From positions 89,457 through 153,456 of the forward strand of contig NZ_JAFLDR010000005.1 in NCBI RefSeq assembly GCF_017302275.1: a stretch of 64,000 nucleotides of DNA, read 5' to 3'. A program made the translations under genes and the position numbers. The notes below the pieces were generated by a model, which saw only the letters and a list, made by a program, of their open reading frames with translations, was not told where the DNA came from and ran no database searches. Each line of letters begins with the position of its first letter. Position 1 is the first letter of the stretch. This DNA comes from Sulfuritalea sp. Lineage in GTDB: Bacteria > Pseudomonadota > Gammaproteobacteria > Burkholderiales > Rhodocyclaceae. This document shows positions 1-63,867 of this stretch, in pieces.

Positions 1-633
1 GCGTTCGGCCGGCCAGCGCTGCGAAGGCTTGCGCGCGCTGATGTGGATGCCTATGGTCGGGCAGCCGGCGGCGCCGGGGCGAAAAGTCGGCGCCCCACAG
101 GGACTTCCTTCGGTCGCCGGCGCTACGGCGTTTGCCGCGATGACGCGACAGGCCGGCGGTCCGCCTTCGATGCCATACACGGCTGCGACACGAAACACGT
201 CCTCGACTTCATGACGGCCGGCATCGTCGAGTGGCAGTGCGAGATCCAGCCCGTCGACCGCGCCGAAGCCGATGACGCGTTGCGGCGCGAGCCAGCGCGC
301 GAGCCGGACCACCCGTGGTTGCGGCGTCGTGGTGGCGATGATGATGTCGTCGATTCGCATCGCGCGCAGCCCTCGCATCATTTGCAGTCGCCGCCACAGG
401 ATGCCCGGCAGCGAATCGCCGCCGGCCCGGTGCTTTGCCTTGGTATAGACGAAGACTTCGTCGAGGTCCGGGTTGCCGTCCAGCACCGGCGCGTTGTAAC
501 TGTTGACCAGGGCGCCGAGCCATGCGTCGGGGAAGCGCTGGCGCAGGGCGGCGATCAGCGGCGTGGTGCATACCAGGTCGCCGATATTGTCGCGGCGAAT
601 GACGAGGATTTTTCGGGGGGGGGCTAGGCTCAA
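1..633 (-). CDS. Glycosyltransferase family 9 (heptosyltransferase-like), C-terminus cut by window edge
   Basis: The minus strand reads an N-terminal KILVIRRDNIGDLVCTTP motif, the nucleotide-sugar transferase start typical of GT9/ADP-heptose:LPS heptosyltransferases, followed by ALRQRFPDAWLGALV and, near the edge, an IGIHISARKPSQRWP segment that is also typical of the family. These enzymes add sugars to lipid A core at the inner face of the inner membrane. No ATG lies in frame; TTG at 633 with GGCGAG upstream is the best start, which puts a run of nine C (codons 4-7) inside the gene. Only 16 bp separate it from the divergent apaH. The segment encoding about residues 169-184 is a 47-nt dispersed repeat read in frame, an insertion relative to what I expect of the family. 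The C-terminal part lies outside the window. Confidence 0.8.
   Translation of the reverse strand, partial: MSLAPPRKILVIRRDNIGDLVCTTPLIAALRQRFPDAWLGALVNSYNAPVLDGNPDLDEVFVYTKAKHRAGGDSLPGILWRRLQMMRGLRAMRIDDIIIATTTPQPRVVRLARWLAPQRVIGFGAVDGLDLALPLDDAGRHEVEDVFRVAAVYGIEGGPPACRVIAANAVAPATEGSPCGAPTFRPGAAGCPTIGIHISARKPSQRWPAER
83..129 (+). repeat. Dispersed repeat, long (47-nt) form, copy L1
   Basis: This copy begins AAAGTCGGCG and ends CTACGGC. It lies inside the GT9 gene and is read there as AVAPATEGSPCGAPTF (minus strand). It shares the 47-nt length and the central ACTTCCTTCGGTCG block with copies at 32330, 43554 and 63810 (32330 is the most divergent there). Confidence 0.85.
615..623. repeat. Homopolymer tract of nine G (nine C on the coding strand of the GT9 gene)
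   Basis: Nine consecutive G on the plus strand lie within the first codons of the GT9 gene. Homopolymer tracts at the 5' end of LPS glycosyltransferase genes are known phase-variation sites in Neisseria and others; whether this tract varies cannot be told from one sequence. Confidence 0.6.
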
Positions 634-649
634 GGTAAACTCGCCGGCT

Positions 650-1486
650 ATGGCTACATATGCAATCGGCGATGTGCAGGGATGTTACGACCCGCTCGGG
701 CGCCTGCTCGACTATATCAGCTTCGATCCGGCCGCCGACCGCATCTGGCTGGTCGGCGACCTGGTCAATCGCGGGCCACAGTCCCTGCAGGTGCTGCGCT
801 TGGTCAAGTCGCTGGGCGCTGCGGCGACGGTGGTGCTGGGCAACCACGACCTGCACCTGGTGATGCAGTCCGAGGGCTATGGCAAGGCCAGCGCCGAGGA
901 TACTTTTCGCGACGTGCTGGCCGCTCCGGATCGTGCCGAACTGCTCGCCTGGCTGCGGGCGCAGCCGCTATTCCATGTCGAAGGCGACTGGGCGATGGTG
1001 CATGCCGGCCTGTTGCCGGGGTGGTCGGTGGCGCAGGCGCAGGCGCTTTCCGACGAGGCGTCGGCGGCGCTGCAAGCTGACGACTATCGTGATTTCCTGG
1101 CCCATATGTGGGGTTCGGAGCCGCCTGCCTGGCGCGACGACCTTGCCGGCTGGGATCGCTTGCGCGTGGTGGTGAACGCGATGACGCGCATGCGTTACGT
1201 TACCGTAGCCGGCGCCATGGAGTTCCGCGCGACGGGCGCCAAGGCCCCCCCGGACAAGGGGCCGGTCGGGTGCGTGCCCTGGTTTGCCGCTCCGGGCCGA
1301 GCCAGCCGCGATCATCGCGTCATTTGCGGCCACTGGTCGGCGCTGGGTTATCGCGACGAGGACAATGTTCTGGCGCTCGACACCGGATGCCTCTGGGGCG
1401 GTTGCCTCACGGCGGTGCGGCTGGAGGATCGCCGCGTGTTTCGCCAGCCCTGCCCGCAACAGGCCAAGCCTTCGGGCTGGGACTGA
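650..1486 (+). CDS. apaH: Symmetrical bis(5'-nucleosyl)-tetraphosphatase ApaH
   Basis: A 278-residue calcineurin-like phosphoesterase that hydrolyses Ap4A to two ADP and also acts on Np4-type RNA caps in related species. The metal-binding motifs appear in order: GDVQGCYD (7-14), GDLVNRGP (36-43), GNHDLH (64-69), and later VICGHWSALG. Length matches the family (about 270-280). The ATG at 650 starts exactly at the conserved MATYAIGD sequence; a longer in-frame reading upstream runs through the antisense of the GT9 gene and is not credible. It is divergent from the GT9 gene with only 16 bp between starts and convergent with the lipoprotein gene that follows. Confidence 0.96.
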   Translation: MATYAIGDVQGCYDPLGRLLDYISFDPAADRIWLVGDLVNRGPQSLQVLRLVKSLGAAATVVLGNHDLHLVMQSEGYGKASAEDTFRDVLAAPDRAELLAWLRAQPLFHVEGDWAMVHAGLLPGWSVAQAQALSDEASAALQADDYRDFLAHMWGSEPPAWRDDLAGWDRLRVVVNAMTRMRYVTVAGAMEFRATGAKAPPDKGPVGCVPWFAAPGRASRDHRVICGHWSALGYRDEDNVLALDTGCLWGGCLTAVRLEDRRVFRQPCPQQAKPSGWD

Positions 1487-1512
1487 TTCCGTCGCCCGGC
1501 GTGGCCGCGCCG

Positions 1513-1974: not shown

Positions 1975-2009
1975 CTGCATCTCCATGTCATGGCAGCTGC
2001 CCGTGGCGC

Positions 2010-2960: not shown

Positions 2961-3956
2961 TCAGGGATAAAAGAGGTAGAGCCGGTAGCCGCTGGCGGCC
3001 ATTTCGCCGGTATCCACGCGTACGTTGACGGCGATGTCCGCGTTGGGTGGCATGCCATCGACGGTGGAAGAACGCGGTGGCAGGTAATTGGCCGGAGCAA
3101 GCACCTTGCGCGCCACGGGCTTGTCGGCCGTGTCGGTCAACGTCAGTTCGAGATGGGGGAACTCCTGGGCGAAAGGCGCGCGATTCTTCAGGGTCGCAGT
3201 CAGGGTGAGGAGGCCCTTGGTTTCGGTGTCGGGATGCAGGTCTGAGGCTTCGATTCCGACCAGCCCGACCTTGGCCGGCAGGCCGACTTCGCAAGCGGCC
3301 AGATCGCACAGGGAAACCAGTGCCGGCCTTGCCTCCGGCCACACTACGGCGAGTTCGGTTCGAAACGCGAGTGCGGCCTGCAGTCCGAGCAGCAGCGTGG
3401 CGAACAGGCTGCCGGCTATCCACGGCCAGCGTCGTGGCGGCGGTTCGGAAACGATATCTTCCCGCTCCTGCCCCTCGGGCTCGGTTGCGGCCTCACCGGC
3501 ATCGACGGTTTCGGCTTCGGGTGGATCTGGCGGCGCCATGTCCGCTTCGACAGGTGCGATTGCTTCAGGTAATTCGCGGGCCACGGGGGCGACCAAGCCG
3601 TGTGAAGTGTCGGCCGCGGCGCCTGTTTCGGTGAACGCATCGGCACCACCGGGCAGCTGATCGGCTTGTAGCGGCTCGAAGCCGGAAACGCCTTGCTCGG
3701 CGTCGGGTGCCGGCGCGAGGTCATCCACAAAAGTCGGCGTTGGCGAGACGGCAAGCTCCGGCCCGGAATTGGCGGCCGCCGCGCCGCGCGCCGCCAAAGG
3801 AGGGGCGGGGTGCACCAGCAGCGGCTCCTCGATCAGGCTGTCGAGCGCATTGAAGGCATGCTGGCAGGCACCGCAACGCACGCGGCCGAAGCGCGCCTTG
3901 ATCTGTTCGGCGGTGACGCGAAAGCGCGTGTCGCAGGCCGGGCAGCGCGTCAGCAC
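2961..3956 (-). CDS. Zinc-ribbon and DUF3426 domain membrane protein
   Basis: About 331 residues. The N-terminus is an MJ0042-type zinc ribbon with C5, C8, C28 and C31, followed by a long acidic Pro/Ala/Glu-rich linker, one membrane segment (WIAGSLFATLLLGLQAALAF), and a C-terminal DUF3426 domain. Such proteins are common next to prmA in beta- and gammaproteobacteria; the function is unknown. The GTG at 3956 is chosen because GGAGGG lies 6-7 nt upstream and because homologs begin at LTRCPACDTRF; it overlaps the prmA stop by 7 bp. The linker contains a short dispersed repeat read as AVSPTPTF. Confidence 0.85.
   Translation of the reverse strand: MLTRCPACDTRFRVTAEQIKARFGRVRCGACQHAFNALDSLIEEPLLVHPAPPLAARGAAAANSGPELAVSPTPTFVDDLAPAPDAEQGVSGFEPLQADQLPGGADAFTETGAAADTSHGLVAPVARELPEAIAPVEADMAPPDPPEAETVDAGEAATEPEGQEREDIVSEPPPRRWPWIAGSLFATLLLGLQAALAFRTELAVVWPEARPALVSLCDLAACEVGLPAKVGLVGIEASDLHPDTETKGLLTLTATLKNRAPFAQEFPHLELTLTDTADKPVARKVLAPANYLPPRSSTVDGMPPNADIAVNVRVDTGEMAASGYRLYLFYP
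3730..3752 (+). repeat. Dispersed repeat, short (23-nt) form, copy S1
   Basis: Two mismatches to the core GTCGGCGCTGGCGACACGG. It lies in the linker of the DUF3426 gene and encodes AVSPTPTF on the minus strand. Confidence 0.75.
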
Positions 3957-6220: not shown

Positions 6221-6673
6221 TTAGCCGATCACAAACATGGGCTGTCCGTACTCCACCGCCTGGCCATTTTCGACCTGGATCGCCTTGATGACGCCGGAAA
6301 TGTCGGCTTCGATTTCGTTCATCAATTTCATCGCCTCGATCACGCACAGGGTGTCGCCGGCCTTGACGGTCTGGCCGACCTCCACGAAGGGTGACGCGTC
6401 CGGGCTGCTGGCACGATAGAAGGTGCCCACCATGGGAGCTTTCATGACGTGTCCTTCGGACGGTGCAGGAATCGGCTCGGCGGCAAGGGTCGGCGCTGGC
6501 GCGACGGCAGCGTGGGCGGCAACGGGTGTCGGCATGCTGACCATGGCGGACGCCGGGGCGGCGGTGAGGTGCTTGGCGATGCGGATTCGTTCTTCACCTT
6601 CGGTGATCTCGAGCTCCGAAATGCCGGAGTTCTGCACGAGATCGATCAGGGTCTTGAGTTTTCTCAGGTCCAT
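6221..6673 (-). CDS. accB: Acetyl-CoA carboxylase, biotin carboxyl carrier protein
   Basis: A 150-residue BCCP. The C-terminal biotinyl domain carries the [12 protein letters not shown] motif whose Lys is biotinylated by BirA; the N-terminal helix ([20 protein letters not shown]) is typical. The Ala/Pro-rich linker between them contains a short dispersed repeat read as AVAPAPTL. First gene of accB-accC-prmA; AGGAG is visible just upstream of the ATG. Confidence 0.97.
6486..6508 (+). repeat. Dispersed repeat, short form, copy S2
   Basis: Two mismatches to the 19-nt core. It lies in the Ala/Pro linker of accB and encodes AVAPAPTL. Confidence 0.7.
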
Positions 6674-14826: not shown

Positions 14827-15477
14827 ATGAAGAGCGAAGCGGGAATCTGGTTGCTGGTCGCCGGCGCGGTGCTGACACTGGGCGGCGCCTATCTCGCCTG
14901 GAGCAGTTTTGCCGCCGGCCCGCTGCCGGCCGGGGAGGTGCCGACGGCAAGCGTTTTTCGGGAGCGCCAGCCTTTGCCTGCCTTTGAGCTGCGGGGGCCG
15001 CAAGGCGTGCTTACCGATGTCGACCTGCGCGGCGGCTGGACCTTTCTTTTTTTTGGCTATACGCAGTGTCCTGACGTCTGTCCAGCGGCCCTGGCTCTGA
15101 TGAAGGAGGTCGGGGTGGCCCTGAAGGTCGACAAGGCCGTGCCGCCGGCGCCGACTTTCAGGGTGGTATTCGTTTCGGTCGATCCACGTCGCGATAGCGC
15201 GGAATTGCTGGGCCAGTACCTGGGGGCCTTCGATCCGGCGTTCATCGGTGTCAGCGGTGACGATGCCGCGCTCGCGCCGCTGGTCGCGGCACTGGGCATT
15301 TACTACCGACGTAATGATGCGACGGATGGCAAGAACTATACCGTCGACCATTCCGCCGCGATCCATCTGATTGATCCACAAGGGCGACTGGCCGCTGTTT
15401 TCTCGCCGCCGCAGGATGCCGCGAAAATTGTCGCGGACTTTCGCCGTATTGTGGCCAGCGGAAGCCCGCGAGGATAG
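14827..15477 (+). CDS. SCO1/SenC-family copper chaperone
   Basis: A 216-residue membrane-anchored protein with one N-terminal helix and a thioredoxin-like SCO domain. The CxxxC motif is in GYTQCPDVCPAALALM and the third ligand His in YTVDHSAAIHLIDP. It is the second SCO protein of the cluster and belongs to the more classical type. The loop before the conserved VVFVSVDPRRD strand contains a short dispersed repeat read as AVPPAPTF. Confidence 0.92.
   Translation: MKSEAGIWLLVAGAVLTLGGAYLAWSSFAAGPLPAGEVPTASVFRERQPLPAFELRGPQGVLTDVDLRGGWTFLFFGYTQCPDVCPAALALMKEVGVALKVDKAVPPAPTFRVVFVSVDPRRDSAELLGQYLGAFDPAFIGVSGDDAALAPLVAALGIYYRRNDATDGKNYTVDHSAAIHLIDPQGRLAAVFSPPQDAAKIVADFRRIVASGSPRG
15136..15158 (-). 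repeat. Dispersed repeat, short form, copy S3
   Basis: Two mismatches to the 19-nt core. It is read as AVPPAPTF in the second SCO protein, just before the VVFVSVDP strand. Confidence 0.7.
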
Positions 15478-20641: not shown

Positions 20642-22006
20642 ATGAAACCACTGTTTTTTGCCTGCGCTGCGCTGGCTGTTGCCGTGGCGCCAGCGCCGAC
20701 TTTCGCCAATCCGTTCGAAACGAAACTCGCCAACGGCCTGCGTGTCATCGTCAAGGAAGATCCGCGCGCGCCGACTGCCGTGCACATGGTCTGGTACCGC
20801 GCCGGCAGCATGGACGAAAAGGATGGCACCTCGGGCGTCGCCCACGTGCTGGAGCACCTGATGTTCAAGGGCACCAAGACGCTCAAGTCCGGCGAATTCA
20901 ACAAGCGCGTGGCAGAGGCCGGCGGCCGCGACAACGCCTTCACCAGCCGCGACTACACCGCCTATTTCCAGATCGTACCCAAGGGCGCCCTGCCGGAAAT
21001 GATGAAGCTCGAAGCCGATCGCATGGCCAACCTGACGCTGGATGCGAAGGAGTTCGCCGCTGAGATCAAGGTGGTCATGGAGGAGCGTCGGCTGCGCACC
21101 GACGACAATCCCCAGGCACTTGTCTATGAAGCCCTGAACGCCGCGCTGTTCCAGGCCCATCCGTATCGGCGTCCGATCATCGGTTGGATGGACGATCTGG
21201 AGAACATGACCTGGCAGGACGCGCGCGACTGGTACCGGAAATGGTATGCGCCGAACAATGCCTATGTCGTGATCGTGGGTGATGTCGATCATCGCGAGGT
21301 GTTCCGCCTGGCGCAGAAGTACTACGGCTCGCACAAGGCGCAGGCTCTGCCCGAGCGCAAGCCGCAGAACGAGCCGGCGCAGGCTGGCCAGCGCCGCCTG
21401 AGCGTCAAGGCGCCGGCCAAGCTGCCCTATCTGGCGATGGCGTGGAAGATGCCGAAACTGCGCGACGTGCGCCAGGATCGCGATCCCTATGCGCTGGAAA
21501 TGCTGGCGGCGGTGCTCGACGGTCACGACGCTTCGCGCTTCTCGAAGAACCTGGTGCGCGGCAGTCGCATCGCCCAGTCCGCCGGCGCCGGCTACGATGG
21601 CACGCTGCGCGGCGAAGCGACTTTCATCCTTGATGGACAGCCGGCGGAAGGCAAGACCATCGCCGAACTGGAGGCGGCGCTGCGCGCCGAACTCAAGCGC
21701 ATCCAGGACGAGGGCGTGTCGGCCGAGGAACTGGAACGGGTCAAGACCCAGGCCATCGCTTCGCAGATCTACAAGCGCGATTCGCTGATGGCACAGGCCA
21801 TGGAAATCGGCGGCATGGAGGCGGCGGGCGTGTCCTGGCGCGACATCGATGTCCTGCTCGACCGGCTCAAGGCCGTCAGCGCCGACGACGTGCAGGCCGT
21901 GGCGAAAAAATACTTCCCTGACGATGCCCTGACCGTCGCCGTCCTCGATCCGCAACCGCTCGACCAGAGCAAACCGAAGAAGCCCGTCGCGGCCGCGAGG
22001 CACTGA
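20642..22006 (+). CDS. M16-family zinc metallopeptidase, catalytic partner
   Basis: A 454-residue periplasmic insulinase-type peptidase. The inverted zinc motif HVLEHLMFKG (HxxEH) lies near residue 70, with the downstream Glu in EIKVVMEERRLRTDDNP. A signal peptide covers the first 21 residues, and its end includes a short dispersed repeat read as AVAPAPTF. ATG 20642 is chosen because it begins the signal peptide. The next gene, starting on the stop codon, encodes a partner that lacks the zinc motif; together they probably form a heterodimer. Confidence 0.9.
   Translation: MKPLFFACAALAVAVAPAPTFANPFETKLANGLRVIVKEDPRAPTAVHMVWYRAGSMDEKDGTSGVAHVLEHLMFKGTKTLKSGEFNKRVAEAGGRDNAFTSRDYTAYFQIVPKGALPEMMKLEADRMANLTLDAKEFAAEIKVVMEERRLRTDDNPQALVYEALNAALFQAHPYRRPIIGWMDDLENMTWQDARDWYRKWYAPNNAYVVIVGDVDHREVFRLAQKYYGSHKAQALPERKPQNEPAQAGQRRLSVKAPAKLPYLAMAWKMPKLRDVRQDRDPYALEMLAAVLDGHDASRFSKNLVRGSRIAQSAGAGYDGTLRGEATFILDGQPAEGKTIAELEAALRAELKRIQDEGVSAEELERVKTQAIASQIYKRDSLMAQAMEIGGMEAAGVSWRDIDVLLDRLKAVSADDVQAVAKKYFPDDALTVAVLDPQPLDQSKPKKPVAAARH
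20681..20703 (-). repeat. Dispersed repeat, short form, copy S4
   Basis: One mismatch to the 19-nt core. It forms the end of the signal peptide of the M16 peptidase, read as AVAPAPTF. Confidence 0.8.
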
Positions 22007-23304
22007 TGAAGCAAAGCAAATTCCTGATCGCGATTCTCCTGGCCTGCCTGGCATCGAGCCTGGCCCTCGCCGGCGTCAAGATTGAACACTGGGTCGCTCC
22101 GTCGGGAGCTCGGGTGTTTTTCGTCGAAACCCGCGTGCTGCCCATCCTCGATGTGCAGATCGACTTTGCCGCCGGCGGCGCCTTCGTTGCGCCCGCCAAG
22201 GCCGGCCTGGCCGGCCTGACGCGAGGCCTGCTGGAAGCGGGTGCGGGCGAGCTCGACGAGGAAAAGATCGCCGGGCGCCTGGTCGACATCGCTGCTCGCA
22301 TCGGCGGCGGTGCCGACAGCGACCGCGCCAGCGTCAGCCTGCGCACGCTTTCGGCCAGCAAGCAGCGCGAAGCCGCGCTTGACCTGATGCGCACCGTGTT
22401 GTCAGCGCCGACTTTTCCGCAATCGGTGCTGGAACGTGAAAAGGCCCGCAGCATCGCCAGCATTCGCGAGGCCGAAACCCGCCCCGACGCCATCGCCGGC
22501 AAGCGCTTCGCCGCCGCGATCTATCCCGACCATCCCTATGGCATCAGCCCCACGGTGGAGTCGGTCAGCGCGATCACGCGCGAGGACCTGATCGCGTTTC
22601 ACCGCCAGCACTACGGCGCGAAGGGCGCCATCGTGTCCATCATCGGTGACGTCTCGCGCGCCGAGGCGGAGGCGATCGCCCAGCGCCTGACCGAAGCGCT
22701 GCCGCCGGGCGGCGGCGCGCTCGTGCCGCCGCCGGTGAAGAAGCCGCAACGCGCGACGATCAAGGTGGACCACCCCGCCGCGCAAAGCCATGTCCATGTC
22801 GGCCTGCCCGCCATCAGTCGCGGCGATCCGGATTATTTTCCTCTGCTCGTCGGCAACTACACGCTCGGTGGCGGCGGCTTCGTCTCGCGCCTGATGAAGG
22901 AAGTCCGCGAAAAGCGTGGCTATGCCTACAGCGTGCATTCCTACTTTTCGCCGCGCAAGCTGGAAGGCCCGTTCGAAATTGGCCTGCAGACCCGGCGCGA
23001 CCAGGTGACTGACGCGCTCAAAGTGGTCGACTCGGTCCTCGGCGACTACATCGCCAAGGGGCCGACGCAGCGCGAACTTGCTGCCGCGAAGAAGAACATG
23101 GTCGATGGCCTGGCACTGCGCATGGACAGCAATGCCAAGCTGCTCGGTTACCTGTCGGCGATCGGCTTCTACGGTTTGCCGTTGAGCTACCTCGACGATT
23201 TCCCGGCCAAGGTCAATGCGGTCACCGTCGAGCAGGTCAAGGCCGCCTTTTCACGCCACGTCAAGGCGGAAAACCTTGTCACTGTGGTGGTTGCGGCGGA
23301 CTGA
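22006..23304 (+). CDS. M16-family peptidase-like protein, non-catalytic partner
   Basis: A 432-residue secreted protein of the same fold as its neighbour. In place of HxxEH it reads AGLAGLTRGLLEAG, so it cannot bind zinc there; it keeps the Arg/Tyr segment EKRGYAYSVHSYF in the C-terminal half that helps bind substrate in the partner. It overlaps the first gene by one base (TGATG), which implies equal production. Residues near 138 (TVLSAPTFP) coincide with a short dispersed repeat. Confidence 0.88.
   Translation: MKQSKFLIAILLACLASSLALAGVKIEHWVAPSGARVFFVETRVLPILDVQIDFAAGGAFVAPAKAGLAGLTRGLLEAGAGELDEEKIAGRLVDIAARIGGGADSDRASVSLRTLSASKQREAALDLMRTVLSAPTFPQSVLEREKARSIASIREAETRPDAIAGKRFAAAIYPDHPYGISPTVESVSAITREDLIAFHRQHYGAKGAIVSIIGDVSRAEAEAIAQRLTEALPPGGGALVPPPVKKPQRATIKVDHPAAQSHVHVGLPAISRGDPDYFPLLVGNYTLGGGGFVSRLMKEVREKRGYAYSVHSYFSPRKLEGPFEIGLQTRRDQVTDALKVVDSVLGDYIAKGPTQRELAAAKKNMVDGLALRMDSNAKLLGYLSAIGFYGLPLSYLDDFPAKVNAVTVEQVKAAFSRHVKAENLVTVVVAAD
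22393..22415 (-). repeat. Dispersed repeat, short form, copy S5
   Basis: Two mismatches to the core. It is read as TVLSAPTF in the non-catalytic M16 protein. Part of this peptide is acceptable for the family, so independent origin is possible. Confidence 0.55.
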
Positions 23305-27239: not shown

Positions 27240-27764
27240 ATGAGGGTCTGGCTGGCCTGGCTGGCCATGGTACTGCTGGCGGGTTGCGCCGGAGTGCCGG
27301 GCGGCGAACCGGACGCCGCGCTGGGGCCGCCGCTTGATGGTTTTTCCGCCGCAGGCCGGATGTCGCTGCGCCAGGGCGATCGCAGCGACCACCTGCAGTT
27401 CGATTGGCAGCATTCGCCGCAGCGCGACGTGATGGTGTTTTCGACTCCGCTGGGGCAGGGGTTGGCCGAACTCGGTCGCGATGCCGGCGGAGCGTGGCTG
27501 GCTTTGCCCGGCGCGCAAGAACGGCGCGCCGCCAACCTGGGTGAACTGGCGAAACTCGTTTTCGGCGCGTCCTTGCCGCTGGATGTGCTGGCGGACTGGT
27601 TGCGCGGAGCGCAACCCGAGCGCGAAGGCATTGCGGATGGATGGCGGATCGTGATTTCTGAAACCTTGCCGTATCACCAGCGCCGACTTCCGCGGCGGCT
27701 GGAAGTGCGTCGCGGCGACGTCGAACTGCGGATTGTGATCGACGCCTGGGGTCGCAATGATTGA
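27240..27764 (+). CDS. lolB: Outer-membrane lipoprotein insertase LolB
   Basis: A 174-residue lipoprotein; the lipobox is LLAGC|A near residue 17. LolB receives lipoproteins from LolA and inserts them into the outer membrane. FSAAGRMSLRQGD, LQFDWQHSPQRDVMVFSTPLG and the terminal RIVIDAWG match the family. The gene lies 8 bp after the TPR gene and overlaps ispE by 8 bp, the usual order. A short dispersed repeat is read as PYHQRRLP near the C-terminus. Confidence 0.92.
   Translation: MRVWLAWLAMVLLAGCAGVPGGEPDAALGPPLDGFSAAGRMSLRQGDRSDHLQFDWQHSPQRDVMVFSTPLGQGLAELGRDAGGAWLALPGAQERRAANLGELAKLVFGASLPLDVLADWLRGAQPEREGIADGWRIVISETLPYHQRRLPRRLEVRRGDVELRIVIDAWGRND
27668..27690 (-). repeat. Dispersed repeat, short form, copy S6
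   Basis: Two mismatches to the core. It is read as PYHQRRLP in LolB, a different reading frame from the APTF-type copies. Confidence 0.65.
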
Positions 27765-30585: not shown

Positions 30586-31191
30586 TTGCAGGCACGTTTG
30601 CGCCTGATCGTCGGCCTCGGCAACCCCGGGGCCGAATACGCTGAAACCCGGCACAACGCCGGGTTTTGGTTTTGTGAGCGCCTGGCGCGCGAACTCGGTG
30701 CGTCCTTCACCCGCGAATCGCGCTACCACGGCTTTGTCGCCAGGTTGCGGCTGGATGGCGAGGATCTTTGGTTCTTGATGCCGCAGACCTTCATGAACCG
30801 TTCCGGCCAGGCGGTGCGCGCGCTGACCCAGTTCTTTCGCATCGAAGCCGCGGAAATACTGGTGCTGCATGACGAACTCGACCTGCCGCCGGGCCAGATG
30901 CGGCTCAAGTTCGGCGGCGGCCTCGGCGGTCACAACGGTCTCAAGGACATTACCGCGCACCTCGGCACGCAGGACTACTGGCGCCTGCGCATCGGCATCG
31001 GCCACCCCGGCGACCGCGACGAAGTCGTGAACTACGTGCTCAAGCCGCCGCGCCGCGAGGAGTGCGAGGAAATCGACGCGGCGCTGGACCGTGCGCTGCT
31101 GGCCTGGCCGACGCTGGCGAAGGGCGAGTTCAACGCGGCGACGCAGAAGATCAATACCGTGCCCAAGTTGGCACCCAAGGAAACCCCATGA
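30586..31191 (+). CDS. pth: Peptidyl-tRNA hydrolase
   Basis: A 201-residue Pth that frees stalled peptidyl-tRNAs. [20 protein letters not shown] holds the catalytic His; [13 protein letters not shown] and [13 protein letters not shown] follow (Asn and Asp of the active site), then [13 protein letters not shown]. Start is TTG 30586, three bases after the rplY stop. The 3' end overlaps ychF by 4 bp. Confidence 0.96.
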
Positions 31192-32329: not shown

Positions 32330-32376
32330 AAAGTCGGCGCCCCACGGGGACCTCCTATGGTCGCTGGCGGCACGGC
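32330..32376 (+). repeat. Dispersed repeat, long form, copy L2
   Basis: A 47-nt copy between ychF and the PAS sensor gene, ending 13 bp before that gene's stop codon. It has a few differences from L1/L4 in the central block (CCTCCTATGG). Confidence 0.85.
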
Positions 32377-35290: not shown

Positions 35291-35959
35291 CTATTTCCCC
35301 GGGGCGTTGCCCCAAAGTACCTTGTGCAGTTGCAACTGGAAACGCAGCGGCAGGCGATCTTCGAGGATCCACTGCGCCAGTTGCGCCGGATCGATCTGGC
35401 CCTGCACCGGCGCGAACAGCACTGGACAGCGCTCGAAAAGTCGGCGCTGGCGACACGCGGATACGGCCCATTCGTAGTCCTCGCGCGAGGCGAGGACGAA
35501 TTTCAGTTCGTCGTCGGGCGCCAGCAGGTCGATATTTTCCCAGCGGTTCTTCGCAGACTCGCCCGAACCGGGGGCCTTGAGGTCGACGATGCGCGCCACG
35601 CGCGGGTCGACCGCGCCGATGTCGAGCGCGCCGCTGGTTTCCAGCGAGACCGAATGGCCGGCGTCACACAGTGCGGCCAGTAGCGGCAGGCAGGCCTTTT
35701 GCGCGAGCGGTTCGCCGCCGGTGACGCAGACCGTGGCGCAGTCGAAGGCGGCGACCCGCTGCAGGATGCCCTCGATGGCCAGCAATTCGCCGCCGCTGAA
35801 GGCGTAGGCCGTGTCGCACCAGGTGCAGCGCAGCGGGCAGCCGGTGAGGCGGATGAAAACCGTGGGCAGCCCGACGCGGCTGGATTCGCCCTGGATGGAA
35901 TGGAATATCTCGGTGACGCGCAACGCGGCATTTGCCGCGGAACCCGATGTGGCCGGCAC
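35291..35959 (-). CDS. queE: 7-carboxy-7-deazaguanine synthase
   Basis: A 222-residue radical SAM enzyme of queuosine synthesis that contracts 6-carboxytetrahydropterin to CDG. The cluster motif is C41, C45, C48 in GCPLRCTWCDT; IFHSIQGES precedes it and CVTGGEPLAQ follows. Start GTG 35959 shares one base with the cpoB stop. It closes the tol-pal run, as in Pseudomonas. A short dispersed repeat is read as CRQRRLF near residue 170. Confidence 0.95.
   Translation of the reverse strand: MPATSGSAANAALRVTEIFHSIQGESSRVGLPTVFIRLTGCPLRCTWCDTAYAFSGGELLAIEGILQRVAAFDCATVCVTGGEPLAQKACLPLLAALCDAGHSVSLETSGALDIGAVDPRVARIVDLKAPGSGESAKNRWENIDLLAPDDELKFVLASREDYEWAVSACRQRRLFERCPVLFAPVQGQIDPAQLAQWILEDRLPLRFQLQLHKVLWGNAPGK
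35437..35459 (+). repeat. Dispersed repeat, short form, copy S7
   Basis: One mismatch to the core. It is read as CRQRRLF in QueE. Confidence 0.75.
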
Positions 35960-38624: not shown

Positions 38625-39380
38625 TCAATCAACCAGGGGTTTGAAGCGCAGTTCGAGCGACCGCGAAAACAGGTCGGCCGGTTCCGGCTTGGGTAGCGGG
38701 TTCGATTTGAGGATGGCGCGTTCGATGGCGGCATCCAGCGCGGTATGGCCGGAGGAGCGCTTCAGGCGCACGGTGACGATCTCGCCGCTGGGCAACTGCG
38801 TGACGTCGAACACGGCTTCGGGGTTGCCCTTGACCTCGGGCGGTACCACGATATTGCCGCGGATCTTGCCGCGGATGCGGCCCAGGTAGTCGGCCATCGC
38901 CTTGTTGCGCGAGGCGGCGGCCTGGCTTGCCTTCATTTGCGCCAGCTCCTGCGCGGCACTGTCGACCTGCTTGCGCTGCGTGAGCTGTTCCGCCTCGCGT
39001 TTGAGCTGTTCCTGGAACGGGTCGACGCGCGCCGGCGCGGGTACCGGCTCCGGTTTCGGCGGCGGCTTGGGCTTCTCCTTTTCCTTGATCGCGATGTCCG
39101 GCTTGGGCGGCGGCGGCAGCGGCTTCGGTTCCGGCACCGGGACCGGTGTTGGCGCCGGCTCGGGAGTCGGCGCTGGTGGCACGGCAATCGGCGCGGCCGG
39201 GGCCGGTGCGGGCACGGCACGTACCAGCTCGACTTCCACCGCGTCGGTGGACTTGGTCTGCCAGCGCACGCCGTAGAACAGGAAGCCGGCCAGCACCAGA
39301 TGCACGGCGATCGCCAGCGCGAAGGAAATGCGTTTGCCGGCCTTGTTGGCCGGCGGCCGGAGCGGGGAATCCTTGCTCAA
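38625..39380 (-). CDS. tolA: Tol-Pal system protein TolA
   Basis: A 251-residue inner-membrane protein with one N-terminal helix (ISFALAIAVHLVLAGFLFYG), a Pro-rich then Lys/Glu/Ala-rich middle (shorter than in E. coli), and a C-terminal TonB-like domain ending DLFSRSLELRFKPLVD. The Pro-rich part contains a short dispersed repeat (AVPPAPTP). The start codon directly follows the tolR stop. Confidence 0.94.
   Translation of the reverse strand: MSKDSPLRPPANKAGKRISFALAIAVHLVLAGFLFYGVRWQTKSTDAVEVELVRAVPAPAPAAPIAVPPAPTPEPAPTPVPVPEPKPLPPPPKPDIAIKEKEKPKPPPKPEPVPAPARVDPFQEQLKREAEQLTQRKQVDSAAQELAQMKASQAAASRNKAMADYLGRIRGKIRGNIVVPPEVKGNPEAVFDVTQLPSGEIVTVRLKRSSGHTALDAAIERAILKSNPLPKPEPADLFSRSLELRFKPLVD
39163..39185 (+). 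repeat. Dispersed repeat, short form, copy S8
   Basis: Two mismatches to the core. It is read as AVPPAPTP in the Pro-rich region of TolA. Confidence 0.65.
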
Positions 39381-41637: not shown

Positions 41638-42072
41638 TCATGACGCCGCGTCCAGCAGGGCGGAAACCTGATCCAGGATCGCATCCGGCATGCGAATCGG
41701 CTTGCCCCGCACCGGGTCGATGCAGGCGACGCGGACCTTGGCCTCGAGCAGCAATTCCGTGCCGCGCAGGACGCGCTGGACGAAGACCATCTGTGCCCGG
41801 CCCAGCGAGGCGACCGCGGTTTCGATGGTCAGCAGGTCGTCGAGGACCGCCGGCTTGAGGTAGTCGGCGCTGACGGCACGCACCGCGAACGCCACGCCTT
41901 CCTTCATGAGCACGTTCTGGTCGTGTCCCAGGGCGCGCAGAAATTCGGTGCGTCCGCGCTCTATGTAGCGCAGGTAGTTTGCGTAATACACGATGCCGGC
42001 GGCGTCCGTGTCTTCGTAATAGACGCGCAGCGCCAAGCTGTGGATCGGCTTTGCCGGCGCGGTGTGTTTCAT
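41638..42072 (-). CDS. ybgC: Acyl-CoA thioesterase YbgC (4HBT family)
   Basis: A 144-residue hotdog-fold thioesterase. RVYYEDTDAAGIVYYANYLR contains the catalytic Asp; ERGRTEFLRALG follows. It belongs at the head of tol-pal, but here it is separated from tolQ by a glycosyltransferase gene. ATG 42072 begins MKHTAPAK; it is 4 bp from the stop of the GT-methyltransferase gene. Confidence 0.92.
   Translation of the reverse strand: MKHTAPAKPIHSLALRVYYEDTDAAGIVYYANYLRYIERGRTEFLRALGHDQNVLMKEGVAFAVRAVSADYLKPAVLDDLLTIETAVASLGRAQMVFVQRVLRGTELLLEAKVRVACIDPVRGKPIRMPDAILDQVSALLDAAS
41861..41883 (+). repeat. Dispersed repeat, short form, copy S9
   Basis: Three mismatches to the core; the weakest copy. 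It is read as RAVSADY in YbgC. Confidence 0.45.
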
Positions 42073-42076
42073 CGCA

Positions 42077-43549
42077 TCAGTCCCTGTCGGCCTCGAAAAC
42101 CATGGTTTCCAGCGCAAGCAATCCTGGCGGCATGCGCTCCTCGTTTTCCAGTCCGCACAGCTCCTCGATCCGGCTCGTCATCAGCGGGCAGCGCACGATG
42201 TTCGAAAAGCCGGCGGCAGCCAGCGCGTGGCGCATGGCCTTGTCGTCGTAGATGAACTGGTGGCCCCAGTCGCGTACCGAATTGTTGATCACATAGATGT
42301 CCTCGGCAGCCGGAGCCCAGGGCAGGAAACGCTGCTTCGACCAGTCCAGGTAGGCTTGCTGGAGCGCGGATTTCTCCGGCGTGTAGAGGTCGACCAGGAA
42401 GGCGAAGTCCGGCGTCGCGAGCCGCATTGTGCCACCGCGACGGAGGATGCGCCGGCATTCGGCGAGCAGATCGCGGCCCTGCGCATACGCCATGTGTTCG
42501 ATGAGATGTTCGCTGAATATGTAGTCGAAGCTCTGGTCGGGAAAGGGCAGTGGACGGGTTGCGTCGAGCGGCAGGACACCCGGCACCCGGGGTCGCAGGT
42601 CGGTGTTGAGCCAGCCCTCGAGCAGATGGTCGCCGCAGCCGATGTGCAGCTTGCGCGTCGCATGCGCGGCCAGGTAATCGCCGGCCGCCTTCTGCGCCGG
42701 CAAGCCAGCCGACGGGGCCCCGGGCACGGGCGCCATTTCGTAGACCAGGCGGCGGGTCATAGCCCAGCCGGGCATCAGCCTGGCCTCCGCGCCGTCGGGC
42801 AGCCTTACCTCGAAGCGGGAGGTCGCCACGCCTTGCGCGGCATCCTGCAACACCGTGCGGCGGACTTCGGCATAAATCGTCTGCCGCATTTCCTGTCCGA
42901 GCGCAGCGGGACCCAGTTGGCGCACGAGGTCGTACTTGACCTGCAGGTAGATCGCATTGATCCGCTGGTTGACCCACCGGTCGCGGACCTCGTGGAAGCG
43001 GGTGCGCTCTTCGTCGCCATGCGGCAGCGAGGAAATCAGCCGCCCCGGAAAGGGCGCCGGGCGCCGGCCGAGCCTTTCGAGCCGGAGATAGATGTCGTTG
43101 TCTTCGCTGCCCCAGCCAGCCAGGACCTCGTCGTAGCCGCCGATGCGCTCGAAATCGGCGCGGGCGCACAGATGCATGCCCCATTGCTCCCAGGCGACCG
43201 GTTGCGGGCGATAGTAGGAACCCTCGCGCAGCAGGGGTGCGAGCGTCGCCGCGAATTCGTCCGCGATCAGGATGTCGGCATCGATAAAGCACAGCCACGG
43301 TGCGGTGGCGGCGCGGGCGCCCAGGTTGCGGGCACGCGAGGCGCTGAACAACGGCGCGTCCCTGACATGGACGACGCGAACGGCAGGAAAGTGTTCCGCG
43401 ACCCACAGGCGGGTCTGGTCCGGACAGTCGTAATCGACCACCACGCATTCCGCGCCGGGCTGGCGCGCGAGCAGCGGCAGCGACTGCCGCAGGTGATGCA
43501 GGCGACCCTTGCAGGTGACGATGAAGGCGATCTTGGTCAGTGAGCCCAT
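42077..43549 (-). CDS. Glycosyltransferase-methyltransferase fusion protein
   Basis: A 490-residue two-domain protein. Residues 1 to about 265 are a GT-A glycosyltransferase (AFIVTCKGRLHHLRQSLP, CFIDADILIADEF with the DxD motif, GGYDEVLAGWGSEDNDIYLRL). Residues about 300-490 are a class I SAM methyltransferase (RKLHIGCGDHLLEGWLNTDL, SFDYIFSEHLIEHM, ECRRILRRGGTMRLATP). No membrane segments. Start ATG 43549 follows directly on a long dispersed repeat, which supplies the leader and no ribosome-binding site. Probably builds and methylates a surface glycan (inference). Confidence 0.85.
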   Translation of the reverse strand: MGSLTKIAFIVTCKGRLHHLRQSLPLLARQPGAECVVVDYDCPDQTRLWVAEHFPAVRVVHVRDAPLFSASRARNLGARAATAPWLCFIDADILIADEFAATLAPLLREGSYYRPQPVAWEQWGMHLCARADFERIGGYDEVLAGWGSEDNDIYLRLERLGRRPAPFPGRLISSLPHGDEERTRFHEVRDRWVNQRINAIYLQVKYDLVRQLGPAALGQEMRQTIYAEVRRTVLQDAAQGVATSRFEVRLPDGAEARLMPGWAMTRRLVYEMAPVPGAPSAGLPAQKAAGDYLAAHATRKLHIGCGDHLLEGWLNTDLRPRVPGVLPLDATRPLPFPDQSFDYIFSEHLIEHMAYAQGRDLLAECRRILRRGGTMRLATPDFAFLVDLYTPEKSALQQAYLDWSKQRFLPWAPAAEDIYVINNSVRDWGHQFIYDDKAMRHALAAAGFSNIVRCPLMTSRIEELCGLENEERMPPGLLALETMVFEADRD

Positions 43550-43553: not shown

Positions 43554-43600
43554 GCCGTGTCGCCAGCGACCGAAGGAAGCCCATGTGGGGCGCCGGCTTT
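43554..43600 (-). repeat. Dispersed repeat, long form, copy L3
   Basis: A 47-nt copy on the minus strand, ending 4 bp before the GT-methyltransferase start codon, so it forms the gene's 5' leader. The rest of this 145-bp gap shows no gene. Confidence 0.85.
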
Positions 43601-46909: not shown

Positions 46910-47506
46910 TCAGCCGGTCTTCGACAGCAGCTTGAGCGCGGCGCGGATGCCATCCGCCACCGACGCATCGGGCGCCAGCCCCTTCATGGCCGAAGCCGCT
47001 TCGCGCTCGTTGTAGCCCAGCGCCAACAGCGCATTCATGATGTCGGAAGCGGCATCCGCCGCCGTGTCGCCAGCGCCGACTCTTGCGCCGCCGACGGCGA
47101 GCGTCTTCGGCAACCGGTCGCGCAGTTCCAGCAGCAGGCGTTCGGCGGTTTTCTTGCCGATGCCCGGTACCTTGGTCAGCCGTCCGGCTTCCTGCAGGGT
47201 GACCGCCTGCGCCAGTTCCGCCACTGACATGCCGGAGAGCACCGCCAGCGCCGTGCGCGCGCCGATGCCGGAGATCTTCAGCAACTGGCGAAAGGCCGCG
47301 CGTTCTCCTTCCGAGGCGAAGCCGTAGAGGAAGTGGCCGTCTTCGCGCACGATCAGGTGGGTATGCAGCGTCACTTTTTCGCCGCTGGCCGGCAGGTTGT
47401 AGAAGGTGCTCATCGGCACGTCGATTTCATAGCCGAGGCCATGGACGTCGACGGTGATGGCGGGAGGGTTCTTTTCGACGAGGATGCCGCTGATGCGTCC
47501 GATCAT
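46910..47506 (-). CDS. ruvA: Holliday junction DNA-binding protein RuvA
   Basis: A 198-residue protein with the OB-fold N-terminus ([20 protein letters not shown]), two helix-hairpin-helix motifs ([18 protein letters not shown] and [20 protein letters not shown]) and the C-terminal RuvB-binding domain. The flexible linker between domains II and III holds an exact copy of the dispersed repeat, read as [10 protein letters not shown] 47506 overlaps the GT1 gene by 4 bp. Confidence 0.97.
47061..47083 (-). repeat. Dispersed repeat, short form, copy S10
   Basis: Exact match to the 19-nt core. It encodes VGAGDTA in the interdomain linker of RuvA. Confidence 0.85.
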
Positions 47507-50971: not shown

Positions 50972-52513
50972 ATGGCCCAAGCCCTGCCCATCGCCAAGAG
51001 CGGCGAGATCGAACTCGTCCTGCTGTCGCAACTGGCCAACCGCCATGGCCTGATCACTGGCGCCACCGGCACCGGCAAGACGGTGACCCTGCAGCGGGTC
51101 GCGGAGCAACTGTCGCTGGCCGGCGTGCCGGTGTTCCTCGCCGATGCCAAGGGCGACCTTTCGGGTCTCGGCGCCGCCGGCGTCGCCTCCGACAAGCTCA
51201 AGGCGCGGCTCGAAAAAATGCGCGTCACGGACTGGCAGCCGCGCGCCAACCCGGTGGTGTTCTGGGATGTGTTCGGCGAGGCCGGCCACCCGGTGCGGGC
51301 CACGGTATCCGACATGGGGCCGCTGTTGCTGGCGCGCCTGCTCAACCTCAACGATACGCAGTCGGGCGTGCTGCAACTGGTGTTCAAGATCGCCGACGAC
51401 CAGGGCCTGCTGCTGCTCGACCTCAAGGACCTGCGCGCCATGGTGCAATACGTCGGCGACAACGCGGCGCAGTTCAAGACCGAGTACGGCAATGTCTCGG
51501 CGGCGTCGATCGGCGCCATCCAGCGCGGCCTGCTGACACTGGAGGAGCAGGGCGGCGACAAGTTCTTCGGCGAGCCCATGCTCGACATCCAGGACCTGAT
51601 GCAGACGGTGGATGGCAAGGGCGTGATCAACGTGCTGGCCGCCGAAAAGCTGATGAATTCGCCGCGCCTCTATGCCTGCTTCCTGCTCTGGCTGCTGGCC
51701 GAGCTGTTCGAGCAGCTGCCGGAAGCGGGCGACCTGCCGAGGCCCAAGCTGGCCTTTTTTTTCGATGAGGCCCACCTGCTGTTCAACGATGCGCCGCCGG
51801 CGCTGCTGGAAAAGGTCGAGCAGGTGGTGCGCCTGATCCGCTCCAAAGGTGTCGGCGTTTACTTCGTCACGCAGAACCCGCTCGACATCCCCGACACGGT
51901 GCTCGGCCAGCTGGGCAATCGCGTGCAGCATGCGCTGCGCGCCTTCACGCCGCGCGACCAGAAGGCGGTCAAGTCGGCGGCGCAGACCCTGCGCGCCAAT
52001 CCGAAATTCGATGCCGAAGCGGCGATCATGGAACTCGGCGTCGGCGAGGCCCTGGTGTCCTTCCTTGACGAGAAGGGCAGCCCGACGGTGGTCGAGCGCT
52101 GCTTCGTCCTCGCCCCCGGGTCGCGCATCGGTCCGATGACGCCCGAGGAACGCCAGGCGGCCATGGCGGGATCGCTGGTGGCGGGCGTTTACGAAAAGCT
52201 GGTGGATCGAGAATCGGCCTACGAGAAACTCAAGGGCGCACGCGCGGGCGAGGCACAAGAAGTCGGCGCTGGCGACACGGCGATGCAGGCTCCTGCGGCA
52301 GGCACGGCGCCCGCCCAGGCGCCGGCCGAAGGCGGCGGCCTGCTCGGCGGCCTCGGCGACATGCTGTTCGGCAGCACCGGCCCGCGCGGCGGCCAGCGTG
52401 ACGGCCTGGCGCAGTCGATGGCCAAGACCGTGGTACGCACCATCGGCTCGCAGGTCGGGCGCGAGATCGTGCGCGGCGTGCTCGGTTCCATCCTGGGTGG
52501 CCGGCGCCGCTGA
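50972..52513 (+). CDS. HerA-like P-loop ATPase (DUF853/YjgR family)
   Basis: A 513-residue ATPase. Walker [21 protein letters not shown], Walker [19 protein letters not shown], then [21 protein letters not shown] and [14 protein letters not shown], all typical of the family. The C-terminal tail is Gly/Ala rich ([20 protein letters not shown]) and contains an exact copy of the dispersed repeat, VGAGDTA. Function unknown. Divergent from yebC. Confidence 0.9.
52259..52281 (+). repeat. Dispersed repeat, short form, copy S11
   Basis: Exact match to the 19-nt core. It encodes VGAGDTA in the C-terminal linker of the HerA-like ATPase, the same peptide as in RuvA. Confidence 0.85.
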
Positions 52514-58731: not shown

Positions 58732-60141
<1,410 letters not shown>

Positions 60142-60469: not shown

Positions 60470-61890
<1,421 letters not shown>

Positions 61891-61931
61891 TCGCACCGCT
61901 GGCAGCGCAAACTCGCGGTAGCATTCCGGCC

Positions 61932-62606
61932 ATGTTTTCTCCAAGCGACCTCGCCGCGATCTGGCTCACGCTCAAGCTGGCGACCGTCACCACGCTGCTG
62001 CTGCTGCTGATCGGTACGCCGATCGCGTGGCGGCTGGCGCGCACGCGTTCCTGGTGGAAGGGGCCGCTGGCGGCCGTGGTCGCCATGCCGCTGGTCTTGC
62101 CGCCGACCGTGCTCGGCTTCTACCTGTTGCTGCTGATGGGCCCGAACGGTCCGGTCGGCCGCTTCACCGAATGGATAGGCATCGGCCTGCTGCCCTTCAG
62201 CTTCGGCGGCCTGGTGGTCGCCTCGGTGGTTTATTCGCTGCCCTTCGTCGTGCAGCCACTGCAGAACGCCTTCGAGGCCATCGGGGAGCGGCCGCTGGAG
62301 GCGGCCGCCACCTTGCGCGCTTCGCCGCTCGACGCCTTCTTCAGCGTCGCCGTGCCGCTCGCCCGGCCCGGCTTCCTCACCGCGACGATACTCGGCTTCG
62401 CCCACACCGTCGGCGAGTTCGGCATCGTGCTGATGATAGGCGGCAACATCCCGGACAAGACGCGCGTGGTTTCGGTGCAGATCTACGACCACGTCGAGGC
62501 GATGGACTACGCCGCCGCACATGGCCTGGCCGCCGGCATGGTGGCGTTCGCCTTCCTCGTGCTGCTGGCGCTCTACCTGCTGAATTCGCGGGGGCGCAAG
62601 TCGTGA
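61932..62606 (+). CDS. modB: Molybdate ABC transporter, permease
   Basis: A 224-residue permease with five helices. [29 protein letters not shown], the EAA loop [20 protein letters not shown] and [14 protein letters not shown] are typical. It overlaps modC by 4 bp. Confidence 0.95.
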
Positions 62607-63679
62607 GCGTCGCCGCCCGCTTCGCGCTGGCCTGGCCGGGATTTACGCTCGACGTCGACCTCGACCTGCCGGGCCGCGGCGTCACGGCGCTGTTCGGCCA
62701 ATCGGGCTGCGGCAAGACCACCTTGCTGCGCTGCATGGCCGGGCTGGAACGCGGCAGCGGCCGGCTAGCGGTGAATGGCGAGACCTGGCAGGACGAGGCG
62801 AGCTTCATGCCGATCCACCGGCGTGCCCTGGGCTACGTGTTCCAGGACGCGCGGCTGTTCGCGCATCTCGACGTGCGCCGCAATCTCGACTACGGGCGGC
62901 GCCGCGCTTTTCGCCGTGCTGCCAGCGCCGACTCTTCGCGGCGCGATGCCATCATCGACCTGCTCGGCCTCGGTCCGCTACTCGAACGCATGCCGGAACG
63001 GCTGTCCGGTGGAGAGCAGCAGCGCGTGGCGATCGCCCGGGCGCTGCTTACGGCGCCGCGCCTGCTGCTGATGGACGAGCCGCTGGCCTCGCTCGACCAT
63101 GCCCGCAAGCAGGAATTCCTGCCCTGGCTGGAACGCCTGCGCGAAGAGCTGGACATCCCGTTGATCTATGTCAGCCATGCCCCCGACGAGGTTGCGCGGC
63201 TGGCCGATCACATCGTGGTCATGGACGCGGGCCGTGCCGTGGCGCAGGGACCGCTGGCCGAGACCCTGGCGCGCATCGACCTGCCGATCCGGCTGGGCGA
63301 GGATGCCGGCGCCGTGTTCGCCGCCCGGGTGGCCGAGCGCGATGCCGAATGGCATTTGGCGCGCGTGGAGTTCGCCGGCGGCGAGCTCTGGGTGCGCGAC
63401 AACGGCACGCCGGTCGGGCGCGAAGTGCGCGTGCGTATCCTGGCGCGCGACGTGTCGATCGCCAACAGCCGCCATGACGACGTCAGCATCCTGAACCTGC
63501 TCCCGGCCACGGTGGAGGCCGATGCCGCCGAGGACCATCCCTCGCAGGTGCTGGTGCAGTTGCGCGTCGGCGAAACCCTGCTGCTCGGCCGACTGACGCG
63601 GCGCTCGGCGCAACGCCTCGACCTTGCGCCCGGGCGCCAGGTCTGGGTACAGATCAAGGCGGTGGCGCTGGTCGGCTAG
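62603..63679 (+). CDS. modC: Molybdate ABC transporter, ATP-binding protein
   Basis: A 358-residue ABC ATPase with C-terminal Mop domain. Walker [21 protein letters not shown], signature [16 protein letters not shown], Walker [14 protein letters not shown]-loop YVSHAPDEV. The C-terminal [16 protein letters not shown] and [20 protein letters not shown] form the Mop oxyanion-binding unit. Start GTG 62603 overlaps the modB stop. A short dispersed repeat is read as RAASADS in the helical region. Confidence 0.95.
62913..62935 (-). repeat. Dispersed repeat, short form, copy S13
   Basis: Two mismatches to the core. It is read as RAASADS in ModC. Confidence 0.7.
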
Positions 63680-63867
63680 GTGGCATCGAGTTCGGCTTTG
63701 CGTTGCCGAAGGACCTCGACGCATTGGTCGCGAAGCACCCGCCATTCGCCCGCCAGTAGCCACCGGCGGGAATCGCTGTTTGGCCGTACGCGGCAGGATC
63801 TTGGCGTCAAGAGTCGGCGGCCCACAGGGACTTCCTTCGGTCGCCGGCGACACGGCGCGCGATGCAA
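63676..63867 (-). CDS. Possible small or broken ORF containing a long repeat
   Basis: The frame ends SRRWLLAGEWRVLRDQCVEV plus a basic/acidic tail ([11 protein letters not shown]), which looks like the end of a real protein, but its first half is the long dispersed repeat (CRRRPKEVPVGRRLL). There is no ribosome-binding site; the only start is TTG. It may be a gene fragment into which the repeat was inserted. It overlaps the modC end by 4 bp on the other strand. Confidence 0.25.
   Translation of the reverse strand: MHRAPCRRRPKEVPVGRRLLTPRSCRVRPNSDSRRWLLAGEWRVLRDQCVEVLRQRKAELDAT
63810..63856 (+). repeat. Dispersed repeat, long form, copy L4
   Basis: A 47-nt copy downstream of modC, containing the perfect 12-bp palindrome GTCGCCGGCGAC. 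The rest of 63680-64000 shows only the two doubtful minus-strand reading frames listed here. Confidence 0.85.

Follow-up and report, generated by a model that had tools for sequence, protein, structure and literature searches.

What is the short sequence that recurs, on both strands and within one protein gene after another, along the stretch of Sulfuritalea DNA studied here? The window, by which we mean this whole stretch of 64,000 nucleotides (nt; contig NZ_JAFLDR010000005.1, positions 89,457 to 153,456), holds 13 matches to the 19-mer GTCGGCGCTGGCGACACGG at up to three mismatches, against 0.09 expected from dinucleotide shuffles, and four 47-nt long forms (at 83, 32330, 43554, and 63810). 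An initial annotation had reported all of these copies and each is indeed present; the start positions it gave for the short copies are off by 3 on the plus strand and by 1 on the minus strand because they were counted from another base. It had left two readings side by side, a small mobile or copy-converting element that enters genes in frame and a recognition site under selection across core genes, and it is the latter that fits well. We propose that the repeat is a genome-wide recognition word and probably a DNA uptake sequence, by analogy with the DNA uptake sequence (DUS) of Neisseriaceae and the uptake signal sequence (USS) of Pasteurellaceae, so that a third bacterial family would have such a system. 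To our knowledge, the use of own-DNA tags in DNA uptake has so far been known from just two other families of bacteria.

G000, the genome to which the window belongs (a Rhodocyclaceae assembly of 4,409,354 bases in 88 contigs), contains 392 and 369 word matches on its two strands, 761 altogether, compared with 8 + 4 = 12 for the reversed word. The consensus, R-A-R-A-GTCGGCG-CTGGCG-NN-ACGGCG, is about 23 nt long with small variations. For closer study we used a sample of 864 kb of this genome and 1.2 Mb of its congener G002. The profiles of the two species (121 sites of G000 and 80 of G002) have the same form, R-A-R-A-GTCGGCG-C-T(c)-GGCG-N-N-ACGGC-g-a, in which two nearly free positions are flanked by nearly fixed ones, the fixed positions being somewhat sharpened because sites were picked by their match to the 17 other core positions. 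When sites with zero to six mismatches over 20 informative positions were counted in 624 kb of G000, which leaves out contig C1, we obtained 30, 41, 28, 10, 10, 32, and 230, against 0, 0, 0, 0, 9, 51, and 269 on the reversed sequence, and thus no surplus of decayed copies with four to six mismatches. Because an old mobile family would leave such copies, this histogram speaks against one. The excess is also no product of the encoded proteins: the coding sequence of the sampled G000 stretches has 86 words, compared with a mean of 21.4 (maximum 28) in 40 synonymous-codon shuffles, and that of the window has 13, compared with 3.1 (maximum 6). This control is strict, as the shuffle preserves the encoded peptides, and it bears out the enrichment for which the initial annotation had suggested a test.

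The same annotation placed every copy within a protein gene, which holds for 13 of 13 short copies in the window, but not genome-wide. At up to three mismatches in the 20 informative positions, 84 of 119 copies in the G000 sample are genic and 35 (29%) intergenic, against 15.8% of random points, and in G002 the figures are 154 and 77 of 231 (33%), against 14.2%; genes were called by a simple gene caller, and any that it missed would affect random points as much as words. Where an intergenic word has a neighboring gene 3' end, it tends to lie close to it, at a median distance of 13 nt in G000 (n = 32) and 17 nt in G002 (n = 60), compared with 152 and 128 nt for random points, and 59 and 47% of these words lie within 15 nt of that end (random points, 17 and 19%). 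The short word occupies ungapped stretches of conserved protein, as in AhcY and an M16-family protein, as well as linkers and the vicinity of gene ends, and its placement is permissive. Its spacing is somewhat more even than random, with a coefficient of variation of 0.82 in G002 (p = 0.0035) and 0.84 in G000 (p = 0.053). Across 800 kb of G002, word orientation showed no preference with respect to GC skew (46:45 and 24:29), and we rejected a replication-oriented signal on this ground.

Alignments between G000 and G002, at about 73-89% identity, show the sites to be conserved. Among 121 sites of G000, 53 could be aligned, and G002 has the word at the corresponding place in 44 of them; conversely, 58 of 231 G002 sites were alignable, and G000 has it in 40 of the 58. 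Identity is higher at the sites than in their flanks in both directions (0.859 versus 0.749, p = 2.6e-6, for G000 sites in G002; 0.811 versus 0.746, p = 0.0017, for the reverse). The 27 sites missing in the partner species comprise 10 that align without gaps and 17 with 1-30 gap columns, and none of the 27 shows a clean word-length insertion, contrary to what was suggested from the insertion of Rickettsia palindromic elements. Three larger gaps among the 17 correspond to word-interrupting modules or long-like stretches, and a few of the 27 sites, such as C2 58162, lack the A-tract and match by chance. Comparison with solved homologs leads to the same view for the two best-tested genes. The two best solved homologs of AhcY (3d64, 3n58) and two of the M16-family protein (3amj, 3gwb) carry the stretch without a gap, where the initial annotation had asked whether the encoded peptide is an extra segment; for these two genes, this is an outcome that it had itself named as refuting. 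Elsewhere the picture is less uniform: the SCO protein has five extra residues at the word, and in RuvA and HerA the word lies within variable stretches. ModC shows a single one-residue gap near the word against one solved chain, and for QueE the alignments with solved homologs stop short of the site. The short form does not represent a coding element inserted into genes.

The congener G011 provides what we regard as the strongest single argument. A dialect of the word, GTAGACGCCGGCGNNACGGCG, occurs there in 175 copies at up to one mismatch and in 0 or 1 copy in each of 30 other genomes of the genus, G000 among them, while G011 also retains 355 old-style words at up to two mismatches. Of 32 sites in 135 kb of G011, nine have the old letters and 10 the new letters at all three differing positions. 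Ten word sites of the window could be aligned to this genome (locus L062 and contig C33 of G011 align identically to the window): four are in the dialect, four canonical-like, and two without a word. The full new spelling stands at 39166, 47062, and 52262, and a partial one at 6489 (GTCGACGCCGG, classed as dialect) and 20682 (GTCGACGCTGG, classed as canonical-like); the old style persists at 22394, 27669, and 41863, and 35440 and 59663 have no word. Seen from G002, 14 sites gave six dialect, four canonical-like, and four empty places, several being the same loci. Several orthologous sites are therefore respelled toward GTAGACGCCGG, with intermediates present; the respelled ones are linkers or variable stretches, and the old-style ones lie in alignable domains. 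We read this as a letter-by-letter shift to a new spelling wherever the protein would permit it. If many sites are being respelled, something must read them all.

A 120-kb stretch of G000 (C1:80000-200000, L145-L150), of lower GC content (0.56-0.585), lacks the word altogether, against 21.3 copies expected. Ten long products scanned there include TraC, a TraG/TrwB-type coupling protein, an integrase, a DNA methylase, and Wadjet JetA, which point to a conjugative-type, acquired-looking island; the stretch also encodes ordinary products, namely a glutamate dehydrogenase, a Na/H exchanger, and a CorC-type protein.

The word is widespread in the genus and patchy beyond it, as a scan of the genome and its relatives showed. 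All 24 of 24 congeners carry it, in 76 to 757 copies, the lowest being G017 (76) and G021 (196). Among 249 genomes of the family, 28 have at least 134 copies at up to two mismatches and the other 221 have no more than 25. The word-rich genera are six of 68: Sulfuritalea itself (eight of nine genomes), g35 (seven of eight), g80 (seven of seven), g62 (four of four), and the singly represented g24 and g54. In 399 genomes of the order, covering 51 families, more than six copies were found only in G000, G058, G118, and G085, all from Rhodocyclaceae. Beyond G011, spelling also differs between genera: in G118 the word mostly continues ...ACGGCAC, in G047 it sometimes has GTCGGTG, and in G084 all 16 of 16 sites among the matches listed (23 in all) have GTCGACGCTGG. 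A few words that are perfect or nearly so, in part clustered on a single contig, were also seen in other families (G395:C34:277115 and 285457; G348:C3; G608:C55; G490:C5), possibly through horizontal transfer from word-bearing bacteria or contamination of the bins.

These features can be assembled into a mechanism. Within the machinery of natural transformation, a DNA receptor at the cell surface would prefer R-A-R-A-GTCGGCG-CTGGCG-NN-ACGGCG; fragments bearing the word would enter more often and recombine over their homologs; and where protein or regulatory function allows, mutations toward the word would spread and mutations away from it would be repaired. A change in receptor preference would then lead a species to respell its words. 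Both the drive and an uptake receptor as the reader of the word are what we infer from the pattern. Occurrence on both strands, permissive places in core genes, gene ends, conservation above flanks, absence from an island, and dialects together form the pattern reported for DUS and USS (PMC2397512, PMC1939737, PMC12616744, PMC3630211). Like the Sulfuritalea word, DUS are described as present in many copies on both strands at permissive core-gene and intergenic spots, conserved above their flanks, and divided into clade dialects; they are also described as absent from recently acquired genes (PMC3630211, PMC2397512), for which our word offers one word-free island beside words in some phage contigs. 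Unlike the Sulfuritalea word, DUS have 10-12 positions, whereas our word has about 23-26 with a 2-nt free gap, occurs at lower density, and has interrupted forms; the sequences are unrelated, with no copy of the DUS core GCCGTCTGAA in the 864-kb sample of G000. Inverted pairs, which are reported to be common in DUS genomes, amount to one close pair in 864 kb of G000 and three in 1.2 Mb of G002. USS offer a genome-wide word for which spread by accumulated point mutation and uptake drive is proposed (PMC1939737), and a motif extending beyond the core (PMC12616744). They belong to another bacterial family and are shorter than the Sulfuritalea word, and their cores AAGTGCGGT and ACAAGCGGT number five and two in 864 kb, below their reversed words (11 and 24). 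By this comparison, the repeat quite likely works like an uptake sequence, to be filed under neither DUS nor USS. With slightly less confidence, we favor a third, independently evolved uptake system in Rhodocyclaceae, based on a gapped word of about 23-26 nt with genus and species dialects and interrupted words, which would amount to self-tagged sex in free-living betaproteobacteria. If true, this third case, with its longer, different word whose stepwise respelling can be seen, would mean that such systems arise repeatedly, the drive model would become testable on the intermediates, and self-tagged DNA would trace gene flow in uncultured bacteria. Even without an uptake receptor, a word of about 20 positions that is kept at about 760 places and respelled in one species needs explaining.

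Several observations weigh against an uptake sequence. Two genomes of word-rich genera do not conform: in G017 the word is nearly gone, with 76 copies left and none in 88 kb, and in G280 it has no match at up to two mismatches, yet both genomes keep ComEC. A different dialect in G017 was considered and is not supported, given that no word was seen in its 88 kb, which is little sequence for certainty; none of its 10-mers among those listed comes near the over-representation seen in G000 and G002. ComEC, found in 40 of 40 genomes searched, and GspH/FimT-type pilins, found in 38 of 40, do not track the word and were rejected as markers of word-bearing genomes; being nearly universal, neither helps, and ComEC permits uptake but does not support it. 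We found no report of competence in Sulfuritalea in the open-licence literature, where one search paired the genus with DNA uptake, nor, among the papers listed, one of an uptake sequence in Rhodocyclaceae. Some 20 informative positions are long for a word built by mutation, and we know of no parallel among DUS or USS for words interrupted by modules. Even spacing is only marginal in G000 itself, and its sampled stretches are biased by contig strand (78:43) in a way that skew does not explain, with 392:369 genome-wide. Perfect words in a phage (see below) are not predicted by a simple drive on the core genome. At the 17 gapped sites, the word may have been gained by recombination or indels; for DUS, gain by point mutation is argued in PMC1939737 and gain by recombination in PMC2397512. 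Finally, the density of about 0.17 words per kb is several-fold below that of Neisseria, for which about 1900 DUS in 2.2-2.3 Mb are reported.

Three other explanations deserve weight in very different measure. A mobile or copying mini-element, similar to Rickettsia palindromic elements or to repetitive extragenic palindromic (REP) sequences with their RAYT transposases, and inserting in frame with the 23-nt form as its short version, strikes us as improbable, and for the short form it is largely refuted. Rickettsia palindromic elements are insertions of 100-150 nt with palindromes; they resemble our repeat in lying in frame inside genes, and differ in that here the two best-tested sites show no insertion and the word forms no hairpin. 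REP sequences share the many short dispersed copies, whereas the Sulfuritalea word lacks a palindrome, is mostly genic, and is not associated with a Y1 transposase. What keeps such an element in consideration is that the long forms do carry inserted modules, that type-a long forms (described below) look lineage-specific, with five of six bracketed G002 stretches lacking the word, some of them long, that other genera have the 24-mer in tandem and in further contexts, that phages carry words, and that the only Y1 transposase gene of G000 has a perfect word within its 3.3-kb locus. This gene type does not track the word, however: no Y1 match was found in the word-rich G018, G058, G118, G163, G195, G139, and G103, so that a RAYT-type transposase as driver, which the initial annotation had suggested looking for, was rejected. 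A hairpin or REP structure was rejected likewise, as neither the short word nor either strand of the long form folds significantly better as DNA than its shuffles (z = -1.35, -0.21, and -0.72). Together with the lack of decayed copies, the ungapped coding sites, the point-wise respelling with intermediates at orthologous sites, and the absence by eye of shared flanks or target duplications in the copies read, this leaves little of the in-frame mobile element for the short form.

Considerably more serious, although still unlikely in our estimation, is a genome-wide binding site of an intracellular protein acting in chromosome organization, segregation, recombination, or repair, the sites being under selection at many loci and respelled when the protein changes. 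The free central positions, conservation above the flanks, dialects, and absence from the island would fit any recognition function. Against it, segregation or Chi-type signals have an orientation bias with GC skew that the word does not show in the part of G002 sampled, and the word lies at places of low coding constraint, many near gene 3' ends, as uptake words do; the intracellular-protein sites of this type that we know of are far fewer or much shorter. A coincidence of peptide preference and codon bias merits virtually no credence. The frame preference behind it is strong, with VGAGDTA read at 39 of 45 sense sites and AVxPAPTF at 25 of 41 antisense sites, and about 21 words do survive synonymous shuffling, but the fourfold larger real count and the intergenic copies refute it, and the spread over both strands and several frames and the rarity of the reversed word also speak against it.

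In the long forms, a module of about 24-27 nt interrupts the word. In type a, CCCCACAGGGACTTCCTTCGGTCG follows GTCGGCG and divides the word, whose free NN positions are those of the short form, a description that rests on 37 distinct copies, part of 74 in the genome; the 24-nt insert has these 74 matches in G000, against 0 for the control. In the sampled G000 stretches, 10 of 12 type-a copies are intergenic. Six of the 12 sites could be bracketed in G002, where five of the matching stretches have no word and one has it, some of these stretches being kilobases long or of different gene content. An insertion of the module into an existing word was therefore rejected as the account of type a, since only one of six stretches holds a word, and the conversion between long and short forms proposed in the initial annotation is at best partly right: the long form is indeed the word plus a module, but its G002 counterparts mostly lack a word to convert. 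In two aligned cases, a degenerate long-like stretch in G000 stands opposite a short word in G002. Type b, in which the word is split after AAAGT by TATGCGMAGCGGTATCCC..GGGA, is present in 30 of 31 genomes of the genus in 1-22 copies each; in the 28 of 30 loci examined, it lies without exception (28 of 28) between the left half and at least the start of the right half of the word, and a few loci (L295, L302, L309) have a degenerate right half. A third split, of 27 nt, appears in one alignment and in L297. No stop codon occurs in the six frames of either consensus form, as we verified by eye. Of the four long copies in the window, only the one at 83 is in a called gene.

The 24-nt unit, TCCCACAGGG[AG][CT]TTCCTTCGGTC[GA], was observed in several Rhodocyclaceae genera (L201-L205, L208-L213, L219-L220). 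In other genera the 24-mer, often starting TCCCACAGGG, stands outside the word, in tandem arrays of up to five (G095, L201-L205) or between inverted repeats (G158, L212-L213); within Sulfuritalea it is inside the word at all five loci read from G006, G008, and G018.

In the window, the short word at 3733..3751 (+), with two mismatches, is in a zinc-ribbon/DUF3426 protein gene (2961-3956, -; Pfam). In AccB, the biotin carboxyl carrier protein (6221-6673, -), the word at 6489..6507 (+) comes ahead of the biotinyl domain, and G002 has it too. The SCO1/SenC protein gene (14827-15477, +) has its word at 15137..15155 (-), interrupted by 24 nt at the same place in G002. Two words lie in neighboring genes, at 20682..20700 (-) in the N-terminal region ahead of an M16 domain (gene 20642-22006, +) and at 22394..22412 (-) in the M16-family protein (22006-23304, +), and both are retained in G002, as is the one at 27669..27687 (-) in lolB (27240-27764, +). 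A QueE-like radical-SAM gene (35291-35959, -) contains the word at 35440..35458 (+), identical in L061 and retained in G002. At 39166..39184 (+) the word is situated outside the TonB_2 domain of a TonB_2-domain protein (38625-39380, -), and it has the GTAGACGCCGG spelling in G011/L062. The weak match at 41863..41881 (+), in a YbgC-like thioesterase gene (41638-42072, -), is doubtful and perhaps due to chance: it has three mismatches and no A-tract, and relatives without the word have nearly the same residues.

The remaining short copies include two perfect words. That in ruvA (47062..47080, -; gene 46910-47506, -) lies in a variable linker; among the nearest RuvA relatives (L061-L065, 86-90% identity), L061-L064 have a word-like sequence, each spelled in its own way, and L065 has none. 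The other (52262..52280, +) is in a variable C-terminal stretch of a HerA_C ATPase (50972-52513, +), from which it is absent in G002. The word in the adenosylhomocysteinase gene ahcY (59663..59681, +; gene 58732-60141, -) is absent in G002 and G011, and that at 62914..62932 (-) is in modC (62603-63679, +). Among the long forms, the copy at 83..129 (+), with module a in the word, is in a partial gene (1-633, -) having heptosyltransferase matches below the cut-off. The copies at 32330..32376 (+), after ychF (31188-32282, +), and at 43554..43600 (-) are intergenic, with no word in the matching G002 gaps (4 kb for the latter), and the intergenic copy at 63810..63856 (+) is downstream of modC.

Viral sequences also contain the word, with at least 120 stretches of IMG/VR carrying it exactly. 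L371 (IMGVR_UViG_3300016484_000260) is a clear phage contig of 50% GC encoding a terminase, a primase/helicase, and a holin; two perfect words lie 215 nt apart at 1242-1480 and, judged by eye, each seems to encode the C terminus of a small gene product (KVGAGGTA..E stop). Recombination between phages and hosts that bear the word may account for such cases; near relatives of two word-bearing phages, sought for insertion events, were not found. In another viral contig, L339, five perfect words lie within 883-2238, three of their four spacings being exactly 316 nt, which marks the word as part of a tandem repeat. Two contigs of the viral collection, L324 and L435, have six words each at up to three mismatches, some adjoining sequences that we take to resemble integron recombination sites. 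Finally, the window contains two pairs of diverged direct repeats of 119 and 109 nt, at 41271-41549 and 43248-43526, which are 71-74% identical, 1,977 nt apart, and apparently duplicated coding sequence.

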